Part shown: positions 3-17,973 of the stretch, in pieces
Numbering within the stretch: the stretch's first letter is position 1
How the letters are laid out: every line of letters starts with the position of its first letter
The notes under the pieces: generated by a model
Databases searched by the model: none
The model's input: only the letters and a program-made list of their open reading frames with translations
Told to the model about the DNA's origin: nothing
DNA from: a virus
Virus record (IMG/VR): IMGVR_UViG_3300007539_000266
Span: 1 to 21,714 of that record
Strand: one strand, 5' to 3'
Length of the DNA stretch: 21,714 nt
Translations under genes and position numbers: made by a program

Positions 3-167
3 CACTTTCAGCTAGTACCGCTATACGGTTTTGCTATAGGCTATCTTTATTACCACCCTTCGCACGAGGATATAGATATAGTAGACGATGATACCGAATG
101 GAGTAAGCACCAAGTATGCTTAGGAATATTTGCTATAATTGTTACGACGTGGAGGGACTTAGACTAG
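3..167 (+). CDS. Small membrane protein, C-terminal part (5' end outside window)
   Basis: An open frame enters from the left edge and ends with TAG at 165-167, giving 54 residues with no start codon in view. It has two hydrophobic stretches: one at the beginning (FQLVPLYGFAIGYLYY) and one near the end (CLGIFAIIVTTW). They are separated by an acidic segment containing three consecutive Asp. This is the pattern of a small integral membrane protein with two helices and a short acidic loop. It overlaps the sigma-like gene by 52 bases if that gene starts at 116, or by 19 bases if it starts at the GTG at 149. The function is unknown. I recall small membrane proteins in this position in other flavobacterial phages, which is memory and not a search. 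That the frame is coding is fairly likely; its role is a guess. Confidence 0.5.
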   Translation, partial: HFQLVPLYGFAIGYLYYHPSHEDIDIVDDDTEWSKHQVCLGIFAIIVTTWRDLD

Positions 168-622
168 CTTACAAAAAGCATAGGGACTGGATCGAAATAG
201 TACAGTCCTTCGGCTGCAACATAGAGACGGCAGAAGATCTGGTTAGCGAAATGTATATTAAACTAGATAAGGCTATAAAGGACGGGCGGGATATATCGTA
301 TAACAACGACATAAACCACCTATATATATTTAAGATCCTTACGACCTTGTTTTTAGATCTAAAACGTAAAGAGGCTAGAATGGTGCTGGTGGAATATAAT
401 AAGACGATCGACAACCGACCAAACGAATACGTAGACTACGAGAAGAACTACGAAAAAATACTAGATACCTTAGACGGCTTATACTGGTACGATCAGAAGG
501 TATACGAAATAATCGAGAGCGGAGAGAGTATCGCGGAACTTAGTAAAAAGACTAAGATATCGTACTACTCCCTTTATCGTACCTATAACAGAGTAAAACA
601 AATTTTAAAAGACACACTATGA
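116..622 (+). CDS. Sigma-70-like RNA polymerase sigma factor
   Basis: This 168-residue protein has the layout of a small two-domain sigma-70-family factor. Residues about 14-85 look like region 2, with an AEDLVSEMYIKL segment at 39-50 resembling the AED-hxQE-hF-K pattern of region 2 and a later FLDLKRKEAR helix. Residues about 134-166 (SIAELSKKTKISYYSLYRTYNRVKQIL) form a helix-turn-helix like region 4. The role would be to redirect host RNA polymerase, or act as a transcriptional activator, in the phage programme. A GTG at 149 is an alternative start that trims 11 residues and shortens the overlap with the upstream frame; the sigma-like homology only begins around there. It overlaps the next gene by an ATGA. 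The four late-promoter-like elements in this window are the obvious candidate targets, but that link is inference. Confidence 0.72.
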   Translation: MLRNICYNCYDVEGLRLAYKKHRDWIEIVQSFGCNIETAEDLVSEMYIKLDKAIKDGRDISYNNDINHLYIFKILTTLFLDLKRKEARMVLVEYNKTIDNRPNEYVDYEKNYEKILDTLDGLYWYDQKVYEIIESGESIAELSKKTKISYYSLYRTYNRVKQILKDTL

Positions 623-4433: not shown

Positions 4434-4446
4434 ACGTTATATAGGT
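4434..4446 (+). promoter_or_regulatory. Late-promoter-like element, copy A (terminase)
   Basis: ACGTTATATAG starts at 4434 after a run of ten T. It is identical to the copies at 6480 and 17961, and one base off at 13293. The base pattern extends to GTATAA, so the TAT that overlaps the start codon in the other copies is kept here although the ATG is not. The terminase small subunit starts 41 bases after the element begins. This copy therefore separates the DNA motif from any start-codon role. Confidence 0.55.
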
Positions 4447-4474
4447 ATAATTGATTAATCAAAGTTTATCAAAT

Positions 4475-4738
4475 ATGGACGGACGAATAAATAACGGAGG
4501 GAAGCGCGAAGGTGCAGGGCGTAAACCAAAGGACGCAGAGCAGAAACTTATAGAGCGTTTAGATGCGTTAATAGATAAAGAGGAAGCTATCGAGATCCTT
4601 AAAAACAAAATGCACGACGGAGATATGAGAGCGTTACAGTTATACTTTAATTACCGATACGGTAAGCCTAAAGAGAGCGTAGAACTAAGCAGCGAAGGAT
4701 TTAACTTAAACTTCCGCGATCTGGTTAAATTTGATTAG
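4475..4738 (+). CDS. terS: Terminase small subunit
   Basis: The ATG at 4475 gives 87 residues beginning MDGRINNGGKREGAGRKPKD. The GG-K-R-x-GAGRKP motif is a hallmark of the N terminus of small terminase subunits in Gram-negative and Bacteroidetes phages. A TTG at 4451 gives a longer frame that I regard as leader. The rest is helical (KLIERLDALIDKEEAIEILKN, then MRALQLYFNYRYGKPKES), as expected for the oligomerisation and DNA-recognition parts. It recognises viral DNA and hands it to the large subunit, whose gene follows with an 8-base overlap. It is short for a small terminase, but within the usual range for this type. Confidence 0.82.
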   Translation: MDGRINNGGKREGAGRKPKDAEQKLIERLDALIDKEEAIEILKNKMHDGDMRALQLYFNYRYGKPKESVELSSEGFNLNFRDLVKFD

Positions 4739-5927
4739 CCTACAGAAGCAATACAAGTTAATCCCGAACTCGGATACAAGGTATACGATCATTACGGGGG
4801 GAAGGGGTAGTGGTAAGAGTTTTAATATTACTACCCTTATCCTTTGGCTAACGATGGAGCGCGGACACGTAATATTATTTACGAGGTTTACGCTCAAGTC
4901 TGCGCATATTTCCATAATACCAGAATTTTTAGAGAAAATAGATCTACTCGATATGGGTAGGTTTTTTTATATAACCAAAGACGAGATTATTAATAAGGAG
5001 ACGGGCAGTAAGATACTCTTCAAGGGTATTAAGACCAGTAGCGGAGACCAGACGGCAAACCTTAAATCGTTACAAGGGGTCAGTACTTGGATCCTAGACG
5101 AAGCAGAAGAACTTACCGACGAGACTATATTTGACAAGATAGATCTATCGATACGCCACAAGACGTTACAGAATAGGGTAATACTTATAATGAACCCAGC
5201 GACTAAAGAGCATTTCGTATATAAGCGTTTCTTCGAGGACAAAGGCGTACAAGAGGGATCCGTAATATCTAAAGGGGATACGACGTATATACATACGACA
5301 TACCTAGACAACTTAAAAAACCTATCGGAGTCCTTTATACAACAAGCGGAGGTAATGAAGAACCGCAGACCAGAACGATATAAGCATATAATGCTGGGTG
5401 GCTGGTTAAATAAAGCCGAAGGGGTTATATTTCAAAACTGGACTATAGGAGAGTTTCCACAAGGAGACAGTATGTACGGACAAGATTACGGAATGACGGA
5501 TCCTACCGTATTAGTGCAAGTCTTAATAGATCGATCTAGAAAAACGATATACCTAAAAGAGTGCTACTACAAGTATAACTTAACGACCAGCGAGATACGA
5601 TCCCTTAACAGACAGTACGCAGGTAACAGACTAATAATAGCCGACTCCGCAGAGAAGAGACTTATAACAGAACTAAAAGCGGACCTAAACATAAAAGGGA
5701 TACAAAAGACTACTATTTCGGAAGGTATTACGATTATGCAGGACTACGACCTCGTAATAGATCCCAGCAGTAAGAACCTAATAAAAGAACTCAATAACTA
5801 CGTATGGCTAGACACTAAGAGCAACACACCAAAAGATAACGGTTACGATCATTTGATCGACGCAGCGAGGTATTGTATTACGTACCAACTGAAAAACCCG
5901 AACTACGGCAGTTATGCAGTACGATAA
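4731..5927 (+). CDS. terL: Terminase large subunit (Terminase_3 / PBSX type)
   Basis: This 398-residue ATPase-nuclease packages DNA into the prohead. Walker A is G23-G-R-G-S-G-K29-S. Walker B with the catalytic Glu is W-I-L-D123-E124-A-E-E. A coupling motif lies near MNPATK (154-159). The C-terminal RNase H-like nuclease has D252 (YGQDYG), D305 (IIADSA) and D373/D377 (DHLIDAARY), the usual acidic triad. The start is TTG at 4731. In this frame there is a stop at 4707-4709 and no ATG or GTG between it and the Walker A coding part, so TTG is the only plausible start. The frame overlaps terS by 8 bases. After it come 78 bases with a promoter candidate and no other gene. Confidence 0.93.
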   Translation: MISLQKQYKLIPNSDTRYTIITGGRGSGKSFNITTLILWLTMERGHVILFTRFTLKSAHISIIPEFLEKIDLLDMGRFFYITKDEIINKETGSKILFKGIKTSSGDQTANLKSLQGVSTWILDEAEELTDETIFDKIDLSIRHKTLQNRVILIMNPATKEHFVYKRFFEDKGVQEGSVISKGDTTYIHTTYLDNLKNLSESFIQQAEVMKNRRPERYKHIMLGGWLNKAEGVIFQNWTIGEFPQGDSMYGQDYGMTDPTVLVQVLIDRSRKTIYLKECYYKYNLTTSEIRSLNRQYAGNRLIIADSAEKRLITELKADLNIKGIQKTTISEGITIMQDYDLVIDPSSKNLIKELNNYVWLDTKSNTPKDNGYDHLIDAARYCITYQLKNPNYGSYAVR

Positions 5928-5944
5928 AAAAAATGTTTATTTCT

Positions 5945-5975
5945 TTGGAGATTACTAACATTTATTATTATATTG
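5945..5975 (+). promoter_or_regulatory. Candidate host-type promoter for 6006 gene
   Basis: TTG (5945-5947, in TTTCTTTGG), then 21 bases, then TATATTG (5969-5975), which lacks one T of TAnnTTTG. The following GCGGGAAATAACTTAAAAC is close to the leader after the 2101 promoter candidate. Transcription would begin about 20 bases before the ATG at 6006. Confidence 0.42.
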
Positions 5976-6005
5976 CGGGAAATAACTTAAAACAAAATAT
6001 TTATT

Positions 6006-6365
6006 ATGTACGGAATTTTAAACGAAGAAATGGTCTACGTAAAATTTAAAAGCGCGGATACCTTAAAAAAATTAGCGAATATGAGATTATCTTATAAGAT
6101 GAAGAGCGAAGGTTTTTCTCTTAATACTAAAGGGGTAATAGACTATATCGATAGCTGGTTAGAATGGTCGCAGGAAAGCGAAGAGCCAGTAACAGAGCGT
6201 AAGGATATTCTAGATCAAATAGCTTCTACTTTAGTATACAGTAATGTACACTTAATGAACTGTAAGACTAGATCCGAGATAAGTAACCAAGAGACAGACG
6301 AGGTTTATAAGTGGACCGTTAGAATTTTAGACCACCACTTAGACAAGTTTAACTGTAGTAAATAA
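6006..6365 (+). CDS. Hypothetical protein between terminase and tail genes
   Basis: This is a 119-residue, mostly helical protein starting MYGILNEEMVYVKF. Helices lie at about 18-30 (ADTLKKLANMRLSYK) and 42-55, and at the C terminus (VYKWTVRILDHHLDKF). One Cys is at 86 (NCKTRS) and a second near the C-terminal end. It has its own promoter candidate (5945-5975) and is followed by a terminator at 6422-6450, so it forms a one-gene unit inserted between the late terminase and tail operons. No family is recognised. The separate control suggests an accessory or early gene rather than a virion part. Confidence 0.7.
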   Translation: MYGILNEEMVYVKFKSADTLKKLANMRLSYKMKSEGFSLNTKGVIDYIDSWLEWSQESEEPVTERKDILDQIASTLVYSNVHLMNCKTRSEISNQETDEVYKWTVRILDHHLDKFNCSK

Positions 6366-6371
6366 AATTGC

Positions 6372-6379
6372 TATATTTG
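6372..6379 (+). promoter_or_regulatory. TATATTTG -7-like box, possible promoter
   Basis: TATATTTG is an exact match to the TAnnTTTG box of Bacteroidetes housekeeping promoters. The TTG expected 21 bases upstream is only TTT (6348-6350). A transcript from here would run into the terminator at 6422-6450 after about 65 bases without any gene. It may be fortuitous. Confidence 0.28.
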
Positions 6380-6421
6380 TAATACGCTTTTTTCATTAGT
6401 GTATTTAGATTAGTTAGGTAT

Positions 6422-6450
6422 GCCCTTCCACTTGGAGGGGCTTTTTTTTT
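6422..6450 (+). terminator. Rho-independent terminator before the tail operon
   Basis: The hairpin is GCCCTTCC (6422-6429), loop ACTT, GGAGGGGC (6434-6441), eight pairs with one G-T pair. It is followed by nine T (6442-6450). It ends the 6006 gene unit and insulates the tail operon that starts at 6493. Confidence 0.88.
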
Positions 6451-6479
6451 GTCTTAATTTTAAAAATAGATCAAAATTT

Positions 6480-6492
6480 ACGTTATATAGTT
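6480..6492 (+). promoter_or_regulatory. Late-promoter-like element, copy B (tail operon)
   Basis: ACGTTATATAG begins at 6480, and the ATG at 6493 is exactly 13 bases later. It lies 29 bases after the T run of a strong terminator, so a new transcript must start here for the tail genes to be made. The AT-rich upstream has no obvious -33 TTG in the right place. Confidence 0.55.
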
Positions 6493-7137
6493 ATGAAGCT
6501 AGAAATAAACGTCCCCGACTCATTAAGCGAGATAACGCTAGGACAGTACCAGAAGTTCTTACGCATAGACCATAGCGACGAACAATTCGTAGCGCAGAAA
6601 ATGTTAGAGATCTTTTGCGGGATCAAATTAACGGACGCTATGCGTATGCCACTAAAAGACGTACGGGCTATTATTAATTTAATAAACGACCTACTAGACC
6701 AGAAACCCAAACTAGTACGAAAGTTTACCCTGCACGATAGGCAGTACGGATTTATACCACAACTGGATCAAATTAGTTTTGGAGAGTATATAGACCTAGA
6801 TACCTATATCGGAGACTGGGAGAATATGCATAAAGCTATGGCGGTACTTTATCGACCGATTAAGAACTCCTACGGAGAGCGTTATAATATTATCGATTAC
6901 GAGATTATGGACGCAGAGGTATATAGATCTATCCCTATGGACGCGGTAATATCGTCTATACTTTTTTTTTGGAATTTAGGGAACGAGTTAGTACAGTCTA
7001 TGCTTACCTCTTTGGAGCAGGGGGAGGAGAGCCGTATAGTTCAGTATCTCAATTCGGGAGAAAATGGGGCTGGTATGGATCGTTATACGCACTTGCTAAA
7101 GGAGACGTTAAACAACTTGAATATATCTCTACATTGA
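6493..7137 (+). CDS. Tail assembly chaperone, 0-frame protein (gpG-like)
   Basis: This is a 214-residue, mostly helical protein with N-terminal MKLEINVPDSLSEITLGQYQKFL. Its position ahead of the tail completion and tape measure genes, together with a second frame that overlaps its 3' end in -1 phase, fits the G / GT pair of tail assembly chaperones. These hold the tape measure protein during tail assembly and are not in the final virion. Two slippery sites lie in phase. One is a T run at 6962-6970 (codons CTT TTT TTT TGG). The other is G TTA AAC at 7107-7113, eight codons before the stop. The ATG sits 13 bases after the late element. Assignment is by position and layout, with moderate sequence memory. 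Confidence 0.6.
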   Translation: MKLEINVPDSLSEITLGQYQKFLRIDHSDEQFVAQKMLEIFCGIKLTDAMRMPLKDVRAIINLINDLLDQKPKLVRKFTLHDRQYGFIPQLDQISFGEYIDLDTYIGDWENMHKAMAVLYRPIKNSYGERYNIIDYEIMDAEVYRSIPMDAVISSILFFWNLGNELVQSMLTSLEQGEESRIVQYLNSGENGAGMDRYTHLLKETLNNLNISLH

Positions 7138-7223
7138 ACGTACACCTATGCTTACAACATTTAATGTACGAAAAGGAGAAGACCGAAATAGAGCAGCAGG
7201 AATTAAAACGTAAATACAGATAA
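6969..7223 (+). CDS. Tail chaperone second frame (probable -1 frameshift product, gpT-like)
   Basis: This frame is -1 relative to the preceding gene and is open from 6969 (TTG) to TAA at 7221-7223, 84 codons. Its core reads as real protein: QFGRKWGWYGSLYALAKGD (WGWY at 7065-7076), then a helical part VHLCLQHLMYEKEKTEIEQQ and a basic end. The only ATG in frame is late (7165), so it is probably made by -1 slippage on the T run at 6962-6970. This would yield a fusion of about 243 residues. Alternatively it starts at TTG 6969. The last 86 bases lie past the 0-frame stop, so this frame alone can explain them. TAATG joins it to the next gene. Confidence 0.6.
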   Translation: MEFRERVSTVYAYLFGAGGGEPYSSVSQFGRKWGWYGSLYALAKGDVKQLEYISTLNVHLCLQHLMYEKEKTEIEQQELKRKYR

Positions 7224-7672
7224 TGAACCAATTTTATAGAGTACTAGAAAAGATCAAAGAAACCCTAGAGGCAGATATCGACGTTAATACGGTTACTTAT
7301 GGGGATATTACGCAGATCGACTTAAATAAGCAAACGATATACCCACTATCGCACGTAATGGTAAATAACGTAACCAGCAGCGAGGCAGTACTAGCTTTTA
7401 ATATTACGGTACTTAGTATGGATCTAGTAGACGTAACAAAGGACGAAGACGATAGCTTCGAGCGTAGCAACGAGCAAGACGTGCTTAATACACAACTAGC
7501 GGTACAGAATAGATTAATACAGAAAATGCGTATAGGGAGTATATACGTAGACAAGTACCAAATTGAGGAAGACGTAAATATAGAGTTCTTTACGGATCGC
7601 TTCGAGAACGAAGTCGCAGGGTGCGCAGCTACATTTAATATTAACGTAGAAAATGACGTAAACGTATGTTAG
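7223..7672 (+). CDS. Probable tail completion / terminator protein
   Basis: This is a 149-residue alpha/beta protein. An N-terminal helix (FYRVLEKIKETLEAD) is followed by VNTVTYGDI and a strand (IYPLSHVMVNNV), a strand (LAFNITVLSMDLVD), a long helix (TQLAVQNRLIQKMRIG), and a strand-rich C terminus (FTDRFENEVAGCAATFNI). The size, fold order and position between the tail chaperone and a gp10-like gene fit a tail terminator / gpU-like role at the head-proximal end of the tail. I recall similar proteins in flavobacterial phages without a proven function. It overlaps the chaperone frame by one base and the next gene by 7. Confidence 0.55.
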   Translation: MNQFYRVLEKIKETLEADIDVNTVTYGDITQIDLNKQTIYPLSHVMVNNVTSSEAVLAFNITVLSMDLVDVTKDEDDSFERSNEQDVLNTQLAVQNRLIQKMRIGSIYVDKYQIEEDVNIEFFTDRFENEVAGCAATFNINVENDVNVC

Positions 7673-8223
7673 ATCTGGATTACGTTAAAGAGGAACTGCA
7701 CAAGTTCGGGAAGTACGTAGTAAAGGAGTCGAGGGCAAACCTAACCAGACAAAAGAAAAACGTAAGTAAGGATCTATGGAGCAGTATAGGATATGAAGTA
7801 ACGGTATACCCTAACTCTATTTTCGTAGAGTTCTTTATGCTAGAATACGGTATGTACCTAGACGAAGGGGTCGCAGGTAAAAACCCGATGAGGTTACCGC
7901 CAAAGGCAAAGCAGCACGGAAAACAACAAGCCCCTAACAGTAGATTTAAGTTTGGAGATGGTAGCGGTAAAGGTTTACGAAAAGGTATAAATAAATGGAT
8001 AACGCAGAAGTCCAGTTTTAGCGGACAGATCCGAGATAAAAAAGGACGCTTTATACCGCGTAAGAGTTTACAGTATTTGATAACTAGGAGTATCTGGTAT
8101 AGTGGTATTAAACCTAGTATGTTTTTTACTAAGCCCTTCGAGAAGGCTTTTGATAATTTGCCCGACGAGATAATAAAAGCGTACGGGTTAGATCTAGATA
8201 AATTTTTTGAAATGACTACATAA
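7666..8223 (+). CDS. HK97 gp10-like head-tail joining protein
   Basis: This is a 185-residue basic protein. It has an N-terminal helix (DYVKEELHKFGKYVVKESRANL), then LWSSIGYEVTVY and a strand FVEFFMLEYGMYLDEGVAG. A loop rich in Gly, Lys and Pro follows (KNPMRLPPKAKQHGKQ), then the C-terminal IKPSMFFTKPFEKAF. The L/MEYG-x-x-h-D-E-G and late S-x-F-F-x-x-P-F motifs are those of gp10-type neck / tail-completion proteins. The place beside the tail terminator candidate supports this. It overlaps both neighbours by a few bases. Confidence 0.6.
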   Translation: MLDLDYVKEELHKFGKYVVKESRANLTRQKKNVSKDLWSSIGYEVTVYPNSIFVEFFMLEYGMYLDEGVAGKNPMRLPPKAKQHGKQQAPNSRFKFGDGSGKGLRKGINKWITQKSSFSGQIRDKKGRFIPRKSLQYLITRSIWYSGIKPSMFFTKPFEKAFDNLPDEIIKAYGLDLDKFFEMTT

Positions 8224-9347
8224 TGAGCGAAATAAGACTAAGAAGTCCCTATTATTTAAAGATAACAGACGAGGACGCAACATACGATATCGACGAGGTA
8301 ACTCTTACACTAAAATATATAAACGGATCAATAACGGGTATAGGAAGTCAGCCAGTAAGATATACACTAACTAAGAAGGCTAACGGAAACTCGTACGTAG
8401 TATTCGAGATCTCCGAACTAATGCGCGACTATATTACTACAGAGTTCGACGGTACTTACGATAACCGCCCTATATGGATTTATGCCGTAGTTACTGCGGT
8501 AGACAGTTCGAGTAATGCGGTAAGTATTGCGATTAATGGCGGAACTGCTGGTACTACTAAGTCGTTATCTAAACTAGCCTACGACGCTTACAGTACTTTT
8601 AAAGACGGAGCAAATTACGAGGTACAAGGGAGTTCGTATTTTTTGACTAATGCAACAAAGATAAGAATACCAAAAGGACAGATTATAAGAGTACCAGTAA
8701 ATCAAAAAGCCAACGATCCTACAAGTGTAACGGGAGGTACGGCAGCATTTTATACACTTAACCCAGAAACCGCAGTAGGTCCAGTAACTAATATAACTAC
8801 TCCTAGTACTGGAAACGATACTATCGCATACGTAGAAAATGACGCGGACAGTTCGGAGAAGTTACTAGTAAAAGATAGTGGAAATACAACGATAGCAGAA
8901 CTAGACGTCATAGAGGAAGACTGTACAAAATACGGTTTTGCTAAGGTTACATATTACAACTCTTACGGAGCCTTACAAGACTTGTACTTTTTTGGTAAGA
9001 CGATCGAGAGTATAAACACAACGGGAGAACAGTACAAAGCTAACGTAGTAGATCTAAGCAGTACACCAACTCCAACCTACGACGTAAACAAACACCAGTA
9101 TAACCAGTATAATAAACAAGGCGTAAGATCTATACAGTTAAATTCTGGTTACGTAGGAGACGATTATAATATATTAATCGAGGAATTAATGCTATCGGAA
9201 AAGGTATGGATAACGTACGAAAATGTACTGTACCCAGCAAAGCCTAAGACAATGGCGCAAACTTTTAAAACAGTTCTAAATGACTCTTTAGTAAACTATA
9301 CCGTAGATTTCGATTACGCCTTCGACGCGGTACAAAATATTAGATAA
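8223..9347 (+). CDS. Beta-rich tail structural protein
   Basis: This is a 374-residue protein starting MSEIRLRSPYYLKI. The first 120 residues look like a beta-sandwich with Thr/Asn-rich strands. The middle (about 165-235) is rich in Thr, Gly and Asn, typical of exposed virion loops. The C-terminal third has a long aromatic segment (YGALQDLYFFGKTIESI) and ends in TVDFDYAFDAVQNIR. No enzyme motif is seen. Its place in a tail block before the tape measure, joined by TAATG overlaps on both sides, suggests a distal tail or baseplate part. The exact role is unknown. Confidence 0.55.
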   Translation: MSEIRLRSPYYLKITDEDATYDIDEVTLTLKYINGSITGIGSQPVRYTLTKKANGNSYVVFEISELMRDYITTEFDGTYDNRPIWIYAVVTAVDSSSNAVSIAINGGTAGTTKSLSKLAYDAYSTFKDGANYEVQGSSYFLTNATKIRIPKGQIIRVPVNQKANDPTSVTGGTAAFYTLNPETAVGPVTNITTPSTGNDTIAYVENDADSSEKLLVKDSGNTTIAELDVIEEDCTKYGFAKVTYYNSYGALQDLYFFGKTIESINTTGEQYKANVVDLSSTPTPTYDVNKHQYNQYNKQGVRSIQLNSGYVGDDYNILIEELMLSEKVWITYENVLYPAKPKTMAQTFKTVLNDSLVNYTVDFDYAFDAVQNIR

Positions 9348-11374
9348 TGCAGATAGTACAGTTATACATAGACGATCAGCGCGTAGAGTTATTCGAAGAC
9401 GAAACGATTACAATAACCCAGACGCTAAAGAACGCTAAAGATATAGATAAGCTATTTACGGACTTTACGCAGTCGTTTACAGTACCAGCCTCTAAGGATA
9501 ATAACAAGATCTTTAAGCACTACTATAACGACTCAATAATAGACGGCTTCGACGCGAGGAAAAAGGTAGCAGGACGGATCGAGTTAAATAACGTACTATT
9601 CAAAAAGGGTAAAGTAAAACTAGACGGGGTAAACCTAAAAAACAACAAAGCACACGCGTATAGAATAACCTTCTACGGTAACAGTATACAATTAAAAGAT
9701 ATTATAGGAGAAGATAAAATAAGTAACCTAGATCTAAGCGCATACAATACAGATTACACCGCTGCGGATATTGAAGCAGCTATGACGATAGACCCAACGA
9801 CAAACGATTTAATTACTCCGCTTATAACGCATACGCAGAGATTAATATACGACTCGTCTAGCGTATCAGCAACAGATTACGATAATCTATATTACGTAAA
9901 CCCTTCTACGATTAGAGGGGTCCGCTGGAACCAGCTTAAATATGCGATCCGATTACATAAAATAGTAGAGGCAATAGAAACGGATTATTTAACGCCTAAC
10001 GGTTTATCTTTTTCTACCGACTTTTTTAATACTACAAATTCCAGATACCACAGTCTATTTATGTGGCTGCACCGTAAAAGTAGTTTTGTTGAAAACCTAG
10101 AAGACGAGACGCAAATACAAGTAACGGGCTTTACTGGAACTGGAGACTCGTACGTAACACATACGGGTACTTTTCTAGGTACTAACGTACCACCCGCAAA
10201 CCTTGTTACTTTTAGTCTAGCTACTATTACAAGCGACCTCGACCAATACGCGATAATAATAAAAAATCAAGGAAATTTTGTATACAGATCTGGTTTTATT
10301 TCTGGTCCAGATACATTTAGTGTACCCGCAGATTTTGCGTACGCTGCTGGAAGCTGGGAAGTTTTAGTAGTACCTCTTAATTTACCAGTAGATCTAAGCT
10401 TGACTTGGACGGTTACGCATAATATAGGAGGCAGTAATACTACCTTGACTTTCACTTCTCCTACAACTACCTATAATCCAGAGTTTGCTTTTAACATTAG
10501 CCAACAGATACCAGAACTTAAAATAATGGATTTCCTTAACGCCTTATGGAAAATGTTTAATCTGGTAGCTTACATAGACGATAACGACGTAATACAAGTA
10601 CAAACCCTAGACAATTTTTATACGAGTTCTACTGAATACGATATAAGCGAATTTGTAGACGTAACGACTTCGCAGGTAGACGTACCCTTACCGTACAAGG
10701 AACTTAAATTTACCTACACCGATACGGGTACAATACTAGCAGATAAGTACGGACAGATCGTAAACAAAGAATGGGGTGCGATCTATTACAACAATAACGA
10801 AGAGGGTCTTACTGGAGGGTTATATTCTGTAGAAATACCTTTTCACCACGCACAGTACGAACGTATAAAGGACGAGTTTACGGGTAATAATACTAATATA
10901 CAGTACGGATTATTTACCGATAACAACCTTAACCCGTACCACAATGCCCCGTTGGTATTTTATCCCGAACGCGTAACGGGCTTAACGTATGCTTTTGTAG
11001 ATGACGTAGAGCGAGACAACGACCCGCAGACTGTAAAAACTAAATCGTCGGCTATTATGCCTTCGAACTCTAGAGTACTAAACCCTGCAACCTCAACGGA
11101 TAATATACATTTTACGTCCGAGTTCAGCGAATGGGAAACTAGTACGACGCTTACTAATTCTTTATTTGAGTCGTACCACAAAAACTACGTCTCGGATATA
11201 TTTAACAACCTTAACAGATTAACTAAAGTAACCGCTTATTTACCCTTACGTATTATTCGTAACCTCGATCTATCGAACCGTCTAATAATTAACGGGGAAA
11301 GGTATAAGATCAACTCTATTAAGACGAACTTACAAACGGGTAAAAGCGATATAGAATTATTAAACGATTTATGA
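9347..11374 (+). CDS. Large tail tip / baseplate-like protein
   Basis: This is the largest gene of the window, 675 residues. The N-terminal 130 residues (QIVQLYIDDQRVELFEDE onward) form beta-strands with the pattern LFTDFTQSFTVPASK followed by F/Y-rich segments. A central domain rich in Thr, Ser and Asn (about 250-390) looks like an exposed beta module. Residues about 395-425 carry a helix (ELKIMDFLNALWKMFNLVAY) followed by a beta-rich hub-like domain up to the end. No lysin or protease motif was found. By position it may act as the tail hub or tip protein that contacts the fibre. The assignment is from position and composition. Confidence 0.55.
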   Translation: MQIVQLYIDDQRVELFEDETITITQTLKNAKDIDKLFTDFTQSFTVPASKDNNKIFKHYYNDSIIDGFDARKKVAGRIELNNVLFKKGKVKLDGVNLKNNKAHAYRITFYGNSIQLKDIIGEDKISNLDLSAYNTDYTAADIEAAMTIDPTTNDLITPLITHTQRLIYDSSSVSATDYDNLYYVNPSTIRGVRWNQLKYAIRLHKIVEAIETDYLTPNGLSFSTDFFNTTNSRYHSLFMWLHRKSSFVENLEDETQIQVTGFTGTGDSYVTHTGTFLGTNVPPANLVTFSLATITSDLDQYAIIIKNQGNFVYRSGFISGPDTFSVPADFAYAAGSWEVLVVPLNLPVDLSLTWTVTHNIGGSNTTLTFTSPTTTYNPEFAFNISQQIPELKIMDFLNALWKMFNLVAYIDDNDVIQVQTLDNFYTSSTEYDISEFVDVTTSQVDVPLPYKELKFTYTDTGTILADKYGQIVNKEWGAIYYNNNEEGLTGGLYSVEIPFHHAQYERIKDEFTGNNTNIQYGLFTDNNLNPYHNAPLVFYPERVTGLTYAFVDDVERDNDPQTVKTKSSAIMPSNSRVLNPATSTDNIHFTSEFSEWETSTTLTNSLFESYHKNYVSDIFNNLNRLTKVTAYLPLRIIRNLDLSNRLIINGERYKINSIKTNLQTGKSDIELLNDL

Positions 11375-11511
11375 TCCAGAATATACTAGAACTCTTAGAA
11401 ATTGCTCAAGGCGAAACGGAAAACATACGTATAGCGCAAGGCAAATACTATCTACCTAACAATTTTAAAGAAGCAATACAAACTGTGAAAAAGATATACG
11501 ATGAGTACTAA
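11371..11511 (+). CDS. Small 46-residue protein between tail tip and tape measure genes
   Basis: A short gene that is easy to miss. ATG 11371 overlaps the TGA of the previous gene (ATGA), and TAA at 11509-11511 overlaps the start of the tape measure gene at 11501 by 11 bases. The protein is MIQNILELLEIAQGETENIR and so on, two helices with a central IAQGKYYLPNNF. The overlaps on both sides and the plain amphipathic pattern support translation. It may be a tail assembly factor. It was kept because otherwise 126 bases would be unexplained in an otherwise gapless operon. Confidence 0.62.
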   Translation: MIQNILELLEIAQGETENIRIAQGKYYLPNNFKEAIQTVKKIYDEY

Positions 11512-13252
11512 AAAGATAATAGAAATTGAAGCGCAAACCGATAAAGCTACTAAGGAAATAGAGGAACTTCGGAAGGAGGTAAAGAAATTAAACGACCAAG
11601 TAGAAAAAGGTAATAAGCAAACCAAAGAAGGTATAAGCGGAGTAAAAAAAGCTACACAAGCTGCAACGGGTACAATTAAAAAACTAGGTACTACTATTAA
11701 GGGTTTAGGTCTAGGGTTATTTGTGGCGTCTATGGAAAAGATAAAAGAAATATTTTCTACTTCGCAGCCTATCGTCGATCTGGTTAATACTGCTTTTGAG
11801 GCGTTAGGTTTAGCCTTTCAAGATTTCGTACAATTTGTTACGCAGAACTGGAGCAAGGCAGCAGGACCTATAAGCGATTTCTTTAGTAGTGAAGCGGTAA
11901 CACGTATAAAAAACTTTGCGAAGGTCTTAACCGTTGAGGTAATAACGCGAGTTAAAAACTTAATCGAGGGTATAGGCGGACTCGGTAGAGCATTAGTAAA
12001 AGTATTTAAGGGAGATTTTCAAGGTGCAGCAAACGAAGCTAAGGGCGCACTAGGAAACTTTAAGGATACTCTTATAGGTAATGCAGAAGAAACCGCAAAA
12101 GTAGAGCAGGTTTTTGATAAGGTAACTAAGAAGGTCAAAGAATACGTTAAGGAAACCGTAAACGCTGCAAGGGCAAACGTAGATTTACAGAAGTCCGCAG
12201 AGATCGCACGTACAGTTCAGCAAGGTTTAGTAGATCAGTACGACAGACAAGCGGAAGCCTTACGAAATGTAAGAGATAACGAGCAGCAAACAATAGCGGA
12301 CCGAATAAAAGCAAACGAGGACCTAAAGGCAGTTCTAGATAACCAAGAAGAGGCTATGTTAAAGCAGGTCCAACTACAGATCGACGCAGCAGCAGCCACT
12401 TACGAACGTACAAAAAACCAAGAAGACTATATAGTACTATTAGAAGCGCAGCAGGAACTCGACGCGGTACTTGTACAAGTAGAGAACCAGAAATACGAGC
12501 AGCAGCGTAACGCCTTAACACTACAAAAGGAAGTTATAGAACTAGAGGAAAGCAGGGCAGAAGGAAAAGCGCAGAGAGATTTAGCCGAGCGAGAATTTTT
12601 AGCCGAGCAGATAGAGGGAGAGTACTTAAAATTAGAAGCCTTACAAGAGGTAGCCAGAATAGAAGCGGAGATAGAAACGAATAGGCTTACTCATAAACGC
12701 GATCAATATAAAGAAGGTACACAAGCGTACGTAGATGCTAACAACGAATTGCTAGACTTTCAAGCAGAGAACAACCGTAAGCAGGTAGAACTTGAAGGGG
12801 AACTGCAAAAATCAAAGACCGCGCTAGTAGGTCAAGCCTTAAACGATCTGGCGGTAATATTTGGAGAAAATAGTAAGTTCGGTAAAGGGATCGCAATAGT
12901 ACAAGCGATACGAGATACCTACGCAGGAGCGAATAAAGCCCTAGCGTCTGCACCTCCACCGTTTAACTTTATTTCGGCAGCAGCTACGATCGCAGCGGGT
13001 ATTAAGAACGTACGAGAAATTACCAAACAAAAAGACCCACAACCTCCAGCGGGAGTTAGTACGGGCGGATCTGTAGCAGTTAGTACGCCAACGCCTCCAG
13101 CATTTAACGTAATAGGGGCAACTGGGACGAACCAACTAGCGGAGGCAATAGCAGGACAAACACAAAAACCAGTTAAAGCGTATGTAGTAAGTAACGAGGT
13201 TACTTCTGCGCAGAGTTTAGATCGAAATATCGTAAGCGAAGCAACGCTATAA
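11501..13252 (+). CDS. Tail tape measure protein
   Basis: This is a 583-residue helical protein. Residues 1-45 form a charged coiled coil, 66-78 and nearby a hydrophobic segment (IKGLGLGLFVASM), 90-115 another hydrophobic helix, and about 225-450 a long Gln/Glu/Ala-rich coiled coil. The C-terminal part has Gly/Ala-rich membrane-like helices (NFISAAATIAAGIKNV) and a PP-rich region. The end has the conserved-looking AYVVSNEVTSAQSLDRNI. This organisation is typical of tape measure proteins, which fix tail length and enter the cell on DNA delivery. At about 1.5 angstrom per residue it predicts a tail of roughly 85-90 nm. The next gene follows after 53 bases with a new late element. Confidence 0.82.
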   Translation: MSTKKIIEIEAQTDKATKEIEELRKEVKKLNDQVEKGNKQTKEGISGVKKATQAATGTIKKLGTTIKGLGLGLFVASMEKIKEIFSTSQPIVDLVNTAFEALGLAFQDFVQFVTQNWSKAAGPISDFFSSEAVTRIKNFAKVLTVEVITRVKNLIEGIGGLGRALVKVFKGDFQGAANEAKGALGNFKDTLIGNAEETAKVEQVFDKVTKKVKEYVKETVNAARANVDLQKSAEIARTVQQGLVDQYDRQAEALRNVRDNEQQTIADRIKANEDLKAVLDNQEEAMLKQVQLQIDAAAATYERTKNQEDYIVLLEAQQELDAVLVQVENQKYEQQRNALTLQKEVIELEESRAEGKAQRDLAEREFLAEQIEGEYLKLEALQEVARIEAEIETNRLTHKRDQYKEGTQAYVDANNELLDFQAENNRKQVELEGELQKSKTALVGQALNDLAVIFGENSKFGKGIAIVQAIRDTYAGANKALASAPPPFNFISAAATIAAGIKNVREITKQKDPQPPAGVSTGGSVAVSTPTPPAFNVIGATGTNQLAEAIAGQTQKPVKAYVVSNEVTSAQSLDRNIVSEATL

Positions 13253-13292
13253 AAAAAAAATAAAACGAAAACGCAAAATATTAATACTAAAT

Positions 13293-13305
13293 ACGTTATA
13301 TATAT
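13293..13305 (+). promoter_or_regulatory. Late-promoter-like element, copy C (head operon)
   Basis: ACGTTATATAT begins at 13293, and ATG at 13306 follows 13 bases after the start, the same distance as copies B and D. This copy has T instead of the final G. The gap from 13253 otherwise holds an A run and no hairpin, so read-through from the tail operon is possible. Confidence 0.5.
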
Positions 13306-14325
13306 ATGAAGATTATAGAGTTAATTCTAGACGAAGAAAACGATATAAGCGGAGTAGACGCTATTAGCGTAGTAGAACGACCAGCGATAGAGGAAGATTT
13401 TATCGCACTAAAGGACCAGCAGTTTTTATTTGCCGAAGCAGACAAAGAAAAGCGGATCCTAGTAGGCGCGTTACTAGTACCTAATAAGCCGATATACCGA
13501 AACGGGGGCGATGAGGATTACTACGTATTCTTTTCCAGAGAGACGATACGTAAGACTAGCGAACTTTTCCTTATGAAAGGATACCAGAACAACTCGACAC
13601 TAGAACATAACGAACCCTTACAAGGTTTAAGTCTTGTCGAAAGCTGGATCGTAGAAGATAAAGAGAAGGATAAGTCAAGGTTATTTAATATGGACTTACC
13701 CATAGGGACTTGGGTAGGATCTGTAAAAGTGAATAACGAGGAAATATGGAACGACTACGTAAAGACTGGTAAAGTTAAAGGTTTTTCCATAGAGGGTTAC
13801 TTTGCCGACAAACTAGAGCGACCAAATGAGAGCATAGAAGAGGATTTTAGTAGGTTTTGCGCAGAGTTCGCAGAAGAGGAAGCAATAGGGGTTACTGACG
13901 AGTTAAGAAGACTCCTAAACGGCACAGAATTAGAAAGCTATGCCGATTATCCAGACGCAGTAAAGAACAACGCAAAAAGAGGAAGAGAACTAAACGAAAA
14001 GAACGGCAATAAGTGCGCAACGGAAACGGGGAAACAAAGGAGCGCGGACCTAGCAGCAGGTCGAGCGGTAACGGTGGATACGATAAAAAGAATGTATAGC
14101 TACTTATCTAGGGCAGAAGAGTATTACGACGAGTCGGATACGGCAGCTTGTGGGACTATTAGTTATCTATTATGGGGAGGAAAAGCAGCGAAACGCTGGG
14201 CAGAGAGTAAGTTAAAAGAATTAGACCTAATAGACCTAAAAGCCCCTTGTGAAGACGGTTACGAAATGATAGGAATGAAGGAGAAAAACGGACGTTTAGT
14301 CCCTAATTGCGTACCGATTAAATGA
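13306..14325 (+). CDS. Prohead protease (XkdF / S78-like) with C-terminal helical domain
   Basis: The first 170 residues match the XkdF-like / Peptidase_S78 prohead protease pattern: SVVERPAIEEDF early, R50-ILVGALLVPNKPIYR, then E100-H101-N and, 60 residues on, V-K-G-F-S161-I-E-G. H101 and S161 are the expected catalytic pair. The enzyme would cleave scaffold and capsid proteins during prohead maturation, which suits its place before the scaffold and major capsid genes. Residues about 215-305 are a separate helical domain (YPDAVKNNAKRG, T-V-D-T-I-K-R-M, then W290-G-G and RWAESKL). This domain is common in phage head proteins and has no certain function. The last 25 residues (CEDGYEMIGMKEKNGR then PNCVP) carry two Cys in a short hairpin-like motif. 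Confidence 0.82.
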   Translation: MKIIELILDEENDISGVDAISVVERPAIEEDFIALKDQQFLFAEADKEKRILVGALLVPNKPIYRNGGDEDYYVFFSRETIRKTSELFLMKGYQNNSTLEHNEPLQGLSLVESWIVEDKEKDKSRLFNMDLPIGTWVGSVKVNNEEIWNDYVKTGKVKGFSIEGYFADKLERPNESIEEDFSRFCAEFAEEEAIGVTDELRRLLNGTELESYADYPDAVKNNAKRGRELNEKNGNKCATETGKQRSADLAAGRAVTVDTIKRMYSYLSRAEEYYDESDTAACGTISYLLWGGKAAKRWAESKLKELDLIDLKAPCEDGYEMIGMKEKNGRLVPNCVPIK

Positions 14326-14519
14326 GCCACAATGTAAGCCCGAAAGGCGGAAAGAGAGGCTGCTTATGCAAAGGATCAGATACGTACAGTCGTAAGTGCT
14401 GCGACGGTTCGTTATGGGCGCAGGGTATAGGAAGTACCTATAAAACGCAAAACTATTTAATGCAGGAGGACGGATCGTCTTTTTTGCTTTTAGAAAACGG
14501 TAGAAAAATTATAACATAA
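14322..14519 (+). CDS. Small Cys-rich head protein, hypothetical
   Basis: This is a 65-residue protein with C14-L-C16 and K-C26-C27 in a Gly- and Lys-rich first half. This is followed by DGSLWAQGIGSTYK and a strand-rich C terminus ending FLLLENGRKIIT. The CLC...TYS.KCC-DGS-AQGIG motif is one I recall in head operons of flavobacterial phages. The four Cys might bind a metal or form disulfides in the virion. It overlaps the protease gene by 4 bases and the next by one base. No function is known. Confidence 0.65.
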   Translation: MSHNVSPKGGKRGCLCKGSDTYSRKCCDGSLWAQGIGSTYKTQNYLMQEDGSSFLLLENGRKIIT

Positions 14520-14962
14520 TGGCGGATAAACGAATAAGCGACTTAAACGCAGCTACTGCGCTCACGGGTACGGAGAAGTTACCCTTAGTACAAGGCACAG
14601 AGACTAAACGAGCAACAGTAAACGATATTAAAAACTACCTTATAGCTACGGAACTTACCGCAAGTGCAGGACAGACCGTAGATTTAGCGACGTATACAGA
14701 TGCGTTTATTATACATTTAATATGGTCTGGAGCAAACGGAACTGCTACTTATACTTTACCTAGTGCAGCAGCTAACGCGAACAGATTAATACGTTTTATT
14801 ACCGATAGCACTTTTACGACAAATACCCGCGTAGATCTTACACCAGCAGCGGGAGAGAACCTAGACGGATCTACTAACGCCTACCAAGTAAACAAATCGT
14901 ACGAAGGTATTGCGATCTGGTCCGACGGTGTAGAATGGTTTATTATACAGAAAAAAGCATAA
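14519..14962 (+). CDS. Head-fibre-like virion protein
   Basis: This 147-residue protein starts MADKRISDLNAATALTGTEK, then LPLVQGTETKRATVNDIKNY. This ISDL-x-x-x-x-x-L-T-G-x-E-x-L-P-h-VQ segment is a common N-terminal anchor in fibre and head-decoration proteins of tailed phages. The rest is beta-rich and hydrophobic-Thr-Ala, with Y/W residues and a closing strand (VEWFIIQKKA), like a trimeric jelly-roll head. It may decorate the head or be a short fibre. The position inside the head operon favours a head protein. Confidence 0.6.
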   Translation: MADKRISDLNAATALTGTEKLPLVQGTETKRATVNDIKNYLIATELTASAGQTVDLATYTDAFIIHLIWSGANGTATYTLPSAAANANRLIRFITDSTFTTNTRVDLTPAAGENLDGSTNAYQVNKSYEGIAIWSDGVEWFIIQKKA

Positions 14963-14975
14963 ATAAATATAATAT

Positions 14976-15419
14976 ATGAACACACAAAAACAAGTATTCG
15001 CTAAACTAAGTGAAGCGTCAAAAGACGAAAGACTTAGAGGTCTCGAACTACGTATGCAAAAGCGTATGGAGTTAATGGATTATAAAGACTGGGAAGAGGT
15101 CGTAAATGATGGAGAAACCGTTTACGGTATTATTGAAAACTACGTACGAGAAGTTTACGATATGGGCGTAAAAATTACTGCATTAAAGAGAGAATTAGCT
15201 AAGGCAGACGATATCGTAAAAGAAGGTAAAGGAGTAATGGACGATTATTTTAGAGATGCTGACAAATTTTTAAAAGACTATAAGGCAAGAGCAAAAAAAA
15301 TCGGTTTAACTAATTCTGTAGCCGAAAGCCAGATAGAGTCTCAAAAAGATGAGGTAAAACAAATTTTTGACACTTTAAAATCAGACGTTGAGTTTAACAA
15401 AAAACAAAAACTAGGATAA
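14976..15419 (+). CDS. Helical protein of the head operon, hypothetical
   Basis: This is a 147-residue, almost wholly helical and highly charged protein. It has an N-terminal RGLELRMQKRMELMDYKDWEEV segment, a middle helix (VREVYDMGVKITALKREL), and a C-terminal coiled coil (ESQIESQKDEVKQIFDTLK). It is followed with no gap by the next gene (TAA then ATG). Preceding bases AATATAATATATGAAC are A/T rich. It may be an internal virion or assembly protein. No known family is recognised. Confidence 0.6.
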   Translation: MNTQKQVFAKLSEASKDERLRGLELRMQKRMELMDYKDWEEVVNDGETVYGIIENYVREVYDMGVKITALKRELAKADDIVKEGKGVMDDYFRDADKFLKDYKARAKKIGLTNSVAESQIESQKDEVKQIFDTLKSDVEFNKKQKLG

Positions 15420-15785
15420 ATGAGACACGTATTTAATAAAATCGCAAATTTAGCGACAGAGGCAGCAAAGCAACCTTTAAAAAGGGTAGACTTATCAATG
15501 TTCGACGATATCGAAGACGCATTAAGTAGAGTATATTCTGGCGAATTTGTACAAGATGCTTTAGACGAGGCGCAGAGTAAATTTATTTTAGCAAGAGATA
15601 TCGTACGTTTTGATATGGACGATGCGCTTACAGAGGCAGAGTCTCTTATCGAAGATCTAGAAGAAGAACTAAAAGAGATGGGCGAAGAAGACCACCCAAA
15701 ACTTAAAGAGTACAAATCTCAATTAGAAGACGCTAGACAAGAAGTAAAAGAGTACGAAATGAAAGTAGATAGATTTTTAAAATAG
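15420..15785 (+). CDS. Acidic coiled-coil protein of the head operon, hypothetical
   Basis: This is a 121-residue acidic helical protein. Residues 1-35 carry FNKIANLATEAAKQPLKRV and an acidic run (FDDIEDALSRV). From about 60 on it is a coiled coil (ALTEAESLIEDLEEELKEM). It lies immediately after the preceding helical gene and 4 bases before the scaffold gene. With that gene it forms a pair of helical proteins that could assist capsid assembly or be packaged inside. No family is recognised. Confidence 0.6.
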   Translation: MRHVFNKIANLATEAAKQPLKRVDLSMFDDIEDALSRVYSGEFVQDALDEAQSKFILARDIVRFDMDDALTEAESLIEDLEEELKEMGEEDHPKLKEYKSQLEDARQEVKEYEMKVDRFLK

Positions 15786-15789
15786 TAAT

Positions 15790-16350
15790 ATGAACACAGT
15801 AGATATGTTAAACCAGATTAGGACCCTATTAGGGGTAGAGCAAAAAATAGAACTTGCTCAAATTACACTAGATAATGGTACAGTCATAGAAGCGGAAGCG
15901 TTCGAAGCAGGTAACGAAGTATTTATCGTTACGGAAGAGGAAAAGATAGCCTTACCCGTAGGAGAGTACACGTTAGAAGACGGCAGAGCGTTAATCGTTG
16001 AAGAGGAAGGTATTATTAAAGAAGTAGGTACGGCAGAAGCACCAGCGGAAGAAGAAGCCGAAGAGGTAGAAGCCGAAGAAGAAGTAAAAGAGGAAGAAAT
16101 GGCTTACGTAACTCGTCAAGAGTTCGGGGAAGCTATGGACGAGATCAAAGCGATGATCCAAGAACTCGGATACGGTAAAAAAGAGGAAGAAATGCAGGAA
16201 GAAGTTAAGGAAGAGTTAGCAGCACAAGAACCAGCAGCTAGACCTTTGCGTCATAATCCAGAGCGTAAATCTAAACCTCAAATTAAAAAGCTATCAGCAA
16301 ATAAAACAAACGGAACAAAAGATATTATATTCAATAAATTATTTAAATAA
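15790..16350 (+). CDS. Capsid scaffolding protein
   Basis: This is a 186-residue protein just before the major capsid gene and overlapping it by one base. Residues 20-80 are a beta-rich domain (ELAQITLDNGTVIEAEAF, then GEYTLEDGRALIVEEEG). Residues 85-105 are an unusually Glu-rich linker, followed by a coiled coil (MDEIKAMIQELGYGKKEEEM) and a basic C-terminal tail (RHNPERKSKPQIKKLS) that can bind the capsid protein. The acidic middle and basic end are typical of scaffolds. It would be removed by the protease encoded upstream. Confidence 0.75.
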   Translation: MNTVDMLNQIRTLLGVEQKIELAQITLDNGTVIEAEAFEAGNEVFIVTEEEKIALPVGEYTLEDGRALIVEEEGIIKEVGTAEAPAEEEAEEVEAEEEVKEEEMAYVTRQEFGEAMDEIKAMIQELGYGKKEEEMQEEVKEELAAQEPAARPLRHNPERKSKPQIKKLSANKTNGTKDIIFNKLFK

Positions 16351-17291
16351 TGGCAACAGTTACTACAATTACAACTAACTATCAAGGGGAATTTTTACAA
16401 GAGTATATCTCCGCGATGCTTCTTTCGGGAAAAACACTAAACGATGGAGCAATTACAATTAAACCAAATGTTAAACACAAAGCGACTTTAAAAAGTTTAG
16501 ACCTTACGGGGGCTATAGGAGACGCTACTTGCGACTTTACCGATACTGGGGTTTTAACTTTAGCCGACGTGGTTATCGAGCCTAAACCTTTGCAGGTAAA
16601 TATGACTTTGTGTAAGTCAGATTTTAGAGACGACTGGGAGGCAGTTTCTATGGGATATTCTGCGTTTGACTCTTTACCTCCAAACTTTGCGTCGTACATT
16701 ACTGGACATATTGCAGCCCAGATCGCAGAGACGGTAGAGAAAAATATCTGGAACGGAGACGATAGTGCAGGTTCTGGTAACAACTTATTCGAAGGGTTCG
16801 AGCAAAGACTTACTTCGTCTACAATTACTGGAGTAGGTGCGACTACTATTGATCATACAAACGTAATAGCTTTCCTTAACGGAGTAGTCGAAGATATCCC
16901 TAATGCAGTTTACGGTGCAGAGGATTTAATGATTTACGTACCTAACAACGTATACAGAGCGTATGTAAGAGCGTTAGGAGGTTTTGTAGCAAACGTAGGG
17001 GCAGCGGGTATTGACAATAAAGGAACTACCTTCTACCAAATGGAGCAGAAACTAACTGTAAACGGGATCCCGCTTCAACGTTGTCCAGGAATGAGCGACA
17101 ACCGCGCGATCGCTGGTCGTAAATCCAATTTATATTTTGGCACGGGGCTAGTAAGCGATCATAATGAGGTAAAATTACTAGATATGAGCGACTTAGACGG
17201 GTCAGATAATGTAAGGTTCGTTTCTCGTTTTACGGCAGCTACGCAAGTAGGTATCGCAGCAGACGCGATCCACAGAACACCAGCAGTTTAA
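16350..17291 (+). CDS. Major capsid protein (HK97-like fold)
   Basis: This is a 313-residue protein with an N-terminal arm (NYQGEFLQEYISAMLLSGKT). A domain rich in strands and the segment CKSDFRDDWEAVSMGYSAFD come next, followed by an axial helix region (AAQIAETVEKNIWNGDD). The later part has VPNNVYRAYVRALGG and ends FTAATQVGIAADAIHRTP. The layout GEF-x-x-EYI-x-x-x-L-x-x-G-K-T-L at the front and the late R-F-T-A-A-T-Q-V-G are typical of Bacteroidetes phage capsids. It forms the icosahedral shell. The terminator at 17308-17342 follows, so it is the last gene of the main head transcript. Confidence 0.85.
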   Translation: MATVTTITTNYQGEFLQEYISAMLLSGKTLNDGAITIKPNVKHKATLKSLDLTGAIGDATCDFTDTGVLTLADVVIEPKPLQVNMTLCKSDFRDDWEAVSMGYSAFDSLPPNFASYITGHIAAQIAETVEKNIWNGDDSAGSGNNLFEGFEQRLTSSTITGVGATTIDHTNVIAFLNGVVEDIPNAVYGAEDLMIYVPNNVYRAYVRALGGFVANVGAAGIDNKGTTFYQMEQKLTVNGIPLQRCPGMSDNRAIAGRKSNLYFGTGLVSDHNEVKLLDMSDLDGSDNVRFVSRFTAATQVGIAADAIHRTPAV

Positions 17292-17307
17292 TAATTAACT
17301 AACATAT

Positions 17308-17342
17308 AAAGGGGTGGGGTAAATGCGCCCTATCCCTTTTTT
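17308..17342 (+). terminator. Rho-independent terminator after the major capsid gene
   Basis: A 12-pair stem AAAGGGGTGGGG (17308-17319) pairs with CCCTATCCCTTT (17328-17339) with two G-T pairs and an 8-base loop. It continues into TTT (17340-17342). The tail tube gene starts 13 bases further on without a late element, so partial read-through may set the ratio of capsid to tube protein. Confidence 0.8.
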
Positions 17343-17354
17343 AATAAAAAAAAT

Positions 17355-17873
17355 ATGGCTTGTAACTTAACAAATATAGCAGGTAGAGAATTACCTTGCG
17401 AAAAGACGGTAGGCGGATTAAAAGCCGTTTACTTTGCAGCTTTTGACGAAGCTACTACTGCTGGGGACGCAACTAACCCACCAGCGGGTACTTGGTACAA
17501 GTACGACTTAAAGGGTGCGTCTTCTTTAGAGACTTCTATTAACGGGTCCAGAGAAAATAACTCGATCTTTTACACGCAAACGATCAATATACAATTACCT
17601 TTACTAGATAGCGATACTCAAGATGAGGTAAAGATTTTAGCAGCGAACAAACCACACGTTATCGTAGAGGACTATAACGGTCAACAATGGTTAGCGGGAT
17701 TAGAACACGGCTGCGATCTTACGGGAGGTAGCTTAGTAACTGGTGCAAATATGGGAGACTTTAGCGGATTTACGCTAACTTTCGAAGCATTAGAAAAAGC
17801 ACCACCTGCGTACGTAGATACTGCGGTTACTGCTTCGGGTACACCTATAACCCCTAGCGTTACCGCTTCATAG
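17355..17873 (+). CDS. Major tail tube protein
   Basis: This is a 172-residue protein with a first half rich in strands. It starts MACNLTNIAGRELPCEKTVG, then GGLKAVYFAAFDEAT and a long loop. The second half (SRENNSIFYTQTINIQLPLL, DEVKILAANKPHVIVEDYNG) carries the beta pattern of phage tail tube subunits. The Thr/Ala/Pro-rich C terminus is a short linker. It would polymerise as hexameric rings around the tape measure. It stands alone between two terminators in the middle of the head and portal genes, far from the tail operon, which is unusual. Confidence 0.65.
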   Translation: MACNLTNIAGRELPCEKTVGGLKAVYFAAFDEATTAGDATNPPAGTWYKYDLKGASSLETSINGSRENNSIFYTQTINIQLPLLDSDTQDEVKILAANKPHVIVEDYNGQQWLAGLEHGCDLTGGSLVTGANMGDFSGFTLTFEALEKAPPAYVDTAVTASGTPITPSVTAS

Positions 17874-17904
17874 ATTTTCGGTTTTGTTTTAATAGGTAAA
17901 GAGA

Positions 17905-17933
17905 GGGTAGCAGAAATGTTACCCTTTTTTTTT
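17905..17933 (+). terminator. Rho-independent terminator after the tail tube gene
   Basis: The hairpin is GGGTAGC (17905-17911), loop AGAAAT, GTTACCC (17918-17924) with one G-T pair. It is followed by nine T (17925-17933). It is placed 28 bases before late element copy D, the same layout as the terminator at 6422 and copy B. Confidence 0.88.
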
Positions 17934-17960
17934 AATAAGTCGCAAAAAGTCGTTTTTATT

Positions 17961-17973
17961 ACGTTATATAGAT
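17961..17973 (+). promoter_or_regulatory. Late-promoter-like element, copy D (portal operon)
   Basis: ACGTTATATAG begins at 17961, and ATG at 17974 follows 13 bases later. It sits right after a strong terminator, so transcription of the portal operon needs a new start here. Upstream bases are T rich (CGTTTTTATT). Confidence 0.55.

Follow-up and report, generated by a model that had tools for sequence, protein, structure and literature searches.

What reads the short sequence that stands ahead of one structural operon after another in this phage DNA, and could its reader be encoded by the phage itself? The window, as we call the whole stretch of DNA analysed (21.7 kb), is a piece of a tailed phage carrying Terminase_3, a Peptidase_S78_2 protease, a portal and a small sigma-like gene near its left edge. 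By terminase, its nearest cultured relatives are the Nonlabens phages P12024L/S (58% identity), followed by Riemerella phages, and we therefore infer a flavobacterium-like Bacteroidota host. One of the terminase matches (H15, OQ791282.1) is recorded as Shigella phage Henu10, with match identity and coordinates equal to those of Riemerella phage PT15, and is possibly mislabelled. At the right end of the window (20989-21714) a protein with collagen-like G-x-x repeats, which is probably a tail fibre, runs off the sequence. An Rfam search of the window gave no match, and a scan of it for consensus sigma70 promoters gave matches at chance level.

Our analyses indicate that the element is very probably a late-operon promoter, read by the host RNA polymerase with an ECF-type sigma factor that the phage itself encodes (gene 116-622), transcription being predicted to start twelve bases past the C of the core; the late timing is deduced from the structural gene content of the operons. 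The initial annotation had described four copies of an 11-base element, each in front of a structural operon, and this description holds: at 4434, 6480 and 17961 the + strand reads ACGTTATATAG without a mismatch, while the copy at 13293 agrees at 10/11 bases and differs only in the last. Each of the four lies on the coding strand at the head of an operon (terminase, tail, protease/capsid and portal, respectively); neither an exact ACGTTATATAG on the - strand of the window nor any reversed control copy was found. A third-order Markov model predicts 0.15 occurrences of ACGTTATATA on the + strand of the window, where 4 are present. When two mismatches to ACGTTATATAG are allowed, 17 sites are found in the window against 17.8 expected, which is the chance level, and the signal therefore lies only in the exact copies at the operon heads. 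The element as first delimited needs some refinement, since its invariant part is the core CGTTATATA, present at all four sites (Table 1), with a flanking A and G that vary among relatives, and since a (C/T/A)AAAAT box upstream belongs to it at 3 of the 4 window sites. The terminase copy, which has no clear upstream box, counts against the explanation that we favour; the start predicted there would give a leader of 4 nt (TTG at 4451) or 28 nt (ATG at 4475).

Table 1. Coordinates in the window of the proposed late-promoter elements, the predicted starts, the terminators and the sigma gene.
Feature	Position	Strand	Remark
Predicted ECF-type sigma factor gene, 168 aa, sigma2 + sigma4	116..622	+	proposed reader of the element
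Core CGTTATATA, terminase small/large subunit operon	4435..4443	+	same place in relatives; clear upstream box absent
Predicted transcription start, terminase operon	4447	+	C of core +12, T/A at +11/+12
Intrinsic terminator ending the unit upstream of the tail operon	6422..6450	+	
AAAAAT upstream (-35-like) box, putative tail-operon promoter	6462..6467	+	
Core CGTTATATA, putative tail-operon promoter	6481..6489	+	
Predicted transcription start, gene 6493-7137	6493	+	A of ATG
CAAAAT upstream box, putative protease/capsid promoter	13274..13279	+	
Core CGTTATATA, putative protease/capsid promoter	13294..13302	+	
Predicted transcription start, protease gene (Peptidase_S78_2)	13306	+	A of ATG
Terminator-like hairpin GGGTAGCAGAAATGTTACCC + T9, ahead of the portal operon	17905..17933	+	read directly
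CAAAAA upstream box, putative portal-operon promoter	17943..17948	+	
Core CGTTATATA, putative portal-operon promoter	17962..17970	+	
Predicted transcription start, gene 17974-18303	17974	+	A of ATG

Two of the copies had been placed 28-29 bases after strong terminators. Both terminators are present, with T-runs that end at 6450 and 17933, and the spacing to the element measures 29 and 27 bases, respectively. A further terminator-like hairpin (17305-17354) lies just after the capsid gene and right before gene 17355, and no promoter follows it. It is kept in nearly all relatives and probably serves as an attenuator, reducing expression downstream of the capsid gene.

Relatives in which the sigma gene is retained have the element before the same operons. 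In 33 records, the window included, CGTTATATA occurs in 118 coding-strand and 2 opposite-strand copies (8/10 for the reversed 9-mer), raw counts that overstate independence because related genomes share ancestry. Among the terminase relatives the core precedes the terminase, tail, protease and portal operons. Typical relatives of ~31 kb have five copies, before the homologues of the terminase small subunit gene and of genes 6493, 13306, 15790 and 17974; the site before the gene 15790 homologue is thus usual in complete relatives, and the window is without it. When DNA alone was searched, CAAAAT-N13-CGTTATATA-N3-ATG was found in at least 120 viral contigs compared with 2 for a reversed-core control, and 87 of the 88 sites recovered by DNA pattern only precede homologues of the window's late genes. 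In line with the initial annotation, which had not seen the element inside genes, its copies in the window and in the relatives are predominantly on one strand and are not scattered within coding sequences.

One subclade has a copy inside a gene. In L226 (G029 ~6301) a full-looking TAAAAT-N13-CGTTATATA-NNTA lies within a P-loop helicase-like ORF, ~700 bp upstream of the sigma gene, and the same intragenic copy is present in G027, G030, L166, L171-L173, L175, L179, L190, L194 and L206, encoded with the rare codons ACG or TCG. It is possible that this copy acts as a promoter and gives positive feedback on sigma. Another record, G004, has 89,305 bases and is thus some three times as long as its relatives, with its five promoter copies all within the last 20 kb, and may be a chimeric or integrated assembly.

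Alignment of the sites from relatives shows that the element is bipartite, (C/T)AAAAT-N13-CGTTATATA-NN-T-A, the final A usually being the A of the ATG. The C of the core stands exactly 12 nt before an ATG in 73/151 non-redundant sites; in these 73, A occupies positions -18 to -15 in 84-95%, -19 is C or T, -14 is mostly T, and T is found at +11 in 99%. This proximity to the start codon raises the question of whether the element might be a translation-initiation signal in the 5' UTR, conserved by its adjacency to the ATG in Bacteroidota, which do without Shine-Dalgarno sequences. The 3-nt gap to the ATG is indeed fixed in most copies, the second codon is A-rich, and Kozak-like start contexts are used by F. 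johnsoniae (PMC6847099). We nevertheless hold this reading to be highly improbable: no element was found in front of the capsid gene and gene 17355 homologues, internal late genes of the same typical genomes, the box 13 nt further upstream is co-conserved, the element sits right after terminators, and the core, the box and the T/A at +11/+12 are all kept where the ATG lies 13-50 nt downstream. At the 55 sites that have the upstream box and no ATG at +12, a purine occupies +12 in 96%, and TA is found at +11/+12 in 33/55 compared with ~9% at other offsets (P about 1e-21 to 2e-21). Since the pair is kept where the ATG is elsewhere, it is a property of the promoter that is independent of translation.

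The T/A pair resembles the pyrimidine(-1)/purine(+1) that is usual at transcription starts, pointing to a start placed on the start codon; the late promoters of phage AR9 likewise have TA/G where transcription begins (PMC5312081). With RNA predicted to begin at the A of the start codon, the mRNA would therefore be leaderless, and in most late operons the late mRNAs may be leaderless or have a leader of a few bases. Leaderless mRNA amounts to 5.5% in F. psychrophilum (PMC9723704), and in F. johnsoniae leaders of >10 nt are found in 87% of predicted transcripts (PMC6847099).

Which protein could recognize a promoter of this kind? The product of gene 116-622 matches TIGR02937 (sigma70-ECF) over residues 26-167 with E=7.5e-8, as do 22/24 members of its family, and 12/24 members match Pfam Sigma70_r2 (best 1.4e-5; window copy E=0.0015, below the cut-off). 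The window protein scores below both curated cut-offs (18.7 vs 24 for Sigma70_r2 and 32.2 vs 42.9 for TIGR02937), and the case for an ECF sigma therefore rests on the family, whose profile matches the ECF sigmas SigW and SigL in the PDB and aligns over both domains of SigW. An AlphaFold2 model (mean pLDDT 83.6; pTM 0.47, which leaves the domain arrangement uncertain) has a C-terminal helix-turn-helix, and ECF sigma structures rank first when Foldseek is run with it. In its 168 aa the protein has sigma4 and neither sigma1.1 nor sigma3. From profiles and model, then, the gene described as sigma-70-like in the initial annotation is predicted to encode a sigma factor indeed, of the more specific ECF type with sigma2 and sigma4 domains. 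Promoters of ECF (group 4) sigmas have a CGT-type -10 and an AAC-type -35 element; here the -10-like core starts with CGT in almost all cases, and the upstream box is CAAAA rather than GAAC. Such a two-domain protein is in keeping with a bipartite promoter that carries CGT, the box that marks ECF promoters (class SM6) in Flavobacterium psychrophilum (PMC9723704).

The protein matches PHROG 1740 weakly (E=0.039), tblastn of the window sigma against the phage collection found none, the same search with the P12024L sigma found only the P12024 phages, and a search of the genome contig collection with the sigma family found no relative. Overlapping the end of the sigma gene, window positions 619-798 encode a protein of 59 aa, hydrophobic in a segment at its C-terminus, that could be an anti-sigma candidate; a homologue was not seen beside sigma in G029/G030. 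Some contigs, such as L098 (683-1171 and 2927-3511), L101 and L105, code for two sigma paralogues of the window-sigma family, of about 166 and 195 aa, and may have a second promoter class.

Either of the two, promoter or sigma gene, predicts the presence of the other. Loci recovered with sigma only contain 69 coding-strand cores vs 5 on the opposite strand, 26 of them exactly 12 nt before an ATG, and of the records recovered with the promoter only, 8/8 of those with at least 25 kb have the sigma gene; the promoter-found records without it are of 15-20 kb and are probably fragments. The two also vary together. In G024, whose sigma is 53% identical, CGATATA stands at 5/5 late promoters and no CGTTATATA was found. 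In P12024L/S (sigma about 23% identical), five annotated starts are each preceded, at a distance of exactly 12 nt, by AAACAAA-N13/14-CGTTAATA, and a sixth copy reads CGTTAAT and stands 11 nt ahead of the start annotated at NC_018272 22090; the P12024L annotation includes a Sigma-70 region 2 protein. G016/G017 (29% identical) have ACATTTATATA at two starts. Other genomes count against the explanation that we favour. G010 retains CGTTATATA though its sigma is only 26% identical. The sigma gene is present in G021, G022, G023 and G025, where core copies are few or, as judged by ortholog alignment, loosened; no element was found in G015, and de novo k-mer analysis of G015, G021-G023 and G025 gave no single strong motif. 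In the sigma alignment no residues could be assigned to the specificity changes. The link between the sigma gene and the element, which had been offered as conjecture, is thus supported by reciprocal co-occurrence and by co-variation that is coherent within a genome.

The same data bear on whether host ECF sigmas might read the element, the phage sigma gene having some other role. In favour of such host readers, seven ECF sigmas are present in F. psychrophilum, together with a promoter class that has a CGT box (PMC9723704). We consider this explanation very unlikely, given that within a single phage genome the promoter variants change together, that phage sigma and promoter predict each other both ways, and that a scan of 84,980 species genomes with the full promoter pattern gave only 6 isolated matches, none with homologues of the query genes beside it. 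A third explanation, that the element is an operator for a phage activator aiding the host sigmaA holoenzyme, would suit a short, highly conserved site upstream of late operons, and seems to us scarcely credible: the element is not palindromic, it occupies the -7/-10 place itself, which leaves no room for a TAnnTTTG ahead of the start, and CGTTATAT agrees with TAnnTTTG at 1/6 fixed positions.

We propose that promoter recognition by the phage-encoded ECF sigma proceeds as follows. The host polymerase would transcribe the early genes, the sigma gene among them; a search for TAnnTTTG as an early promoter class yielded a small number of matches close to the presumed early region of some genomes, and none of them was decisive. 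The phage sigma would then join the host core polymerase and open the late promoters sited after terminators. If RNA starts at +12 of the core, then relative to that start the core lies at -12 to -4 and the box at -31 to -26, and at about these positions sigma2 would read CGTTATATA and sigma4 (C/T)AAAAT. RNA would begin at the A twelve bases past the C of the core, which is mostly the A of the start codon. Strand, placement, conservation and co-occurrence with sigma all support the view first put forward from the window, that of a phage-specific late promoter class in a Bacteroidetes phage.

No promoter class or transcription programme for these Bacteroidota phages was described in the literature searched, in which few subscription papers were covered. 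On balance, we favour the broader picture of a large undescribed group of Bacteroidota phages in which all late operons depend on one ECF-sigma promoter class, the transcription start is fused to the start codon, late mRNAs are leaderless where hosts rarely have them, sigma and promoter co-evolve to new specificities, and the intragenic copy of one subclade could give positive feedback. The promoter is recognizable from sequence alone in at least 120 viral contigs, with a variant in two cultured phages, and exact predicted start sites are offered. The natural sigma/promoter variants would be useful for deriving rules of ECF recognition, and the promoter could serve as a compact orthogonal one for Bacteroidota genetics. 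Should the mRNAs prove leaderless, one would have to ask by what means late phage mRNA is translated where cells do not use Shine-Dalgarno sequences and leaderless mRNA is uncommon.

How does this putative system compare with those already known? The late promoters of phage T4, recognized by gp55, consist of a short, strongly conserved TATAAATA with no -35-like box, and gp55 lacks a standard sigma4 and needs gp33 and the clamp. The short and strongly conserved late element is a shared trait, and a promoter of the gp55 type is ruled out by the conserved upstream box and the sigma4 domain. The Bacteroidota housekeeping promoter, TTTG / TAnnTTTG (PMC6847099), occupies the same position (-12 to -5) and differs in sequence, with CG where TA stands; it was discarded since no TTG-N17-21-TAnnTTTG match exists at any of the four window sites, in accordance with the early remark that the element is unlike the host-type box. 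The SM6 promoters of Flavobacterium, in contrast to those proposed here, serve host genes such as components of type IX secretion and not phage late genes (PMC9723704).

The phage systems that appear functionally closest are those of coliphage phiEco32 and Salmonella phage 7-11, in which a phage sigma has matching promoters only at middle or late operons, a distribution that we also find here save for the intragenic copy of one subclade. The phiEco32 sigma gp36 transcribes middle and late genes with the host core polymerase (PMC8948821, PMC4281155), as predicted here, and it does so from a single-element promoter, tAATGTAtA, and without region 4, whereas our promoters are bipartite and our sigma has region 4. 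In phage 7-11 the sigma SaPh711_gp47 has region 4 and the bipartite late promoters, GTAAtg-16-aCTA, are found upstream of late genes only, with the start 6-9 bp from the -10 element (PMC8948821). The resemblance, one of function as described, thus lies in a phage-encoded sigma with region 4 and bipartite promoters at late genes, and the promoter sequences and the Proteobacteria host differ. The 7-11 system was shown biochemically and the present one is predicted from sequence; a start on the start codon is not reported for 7-11. What appears to be new here is the Bacteroidota setting, the promoter sequence, the start point fused with the start codon and a natural series of sigma/promoter specificities.
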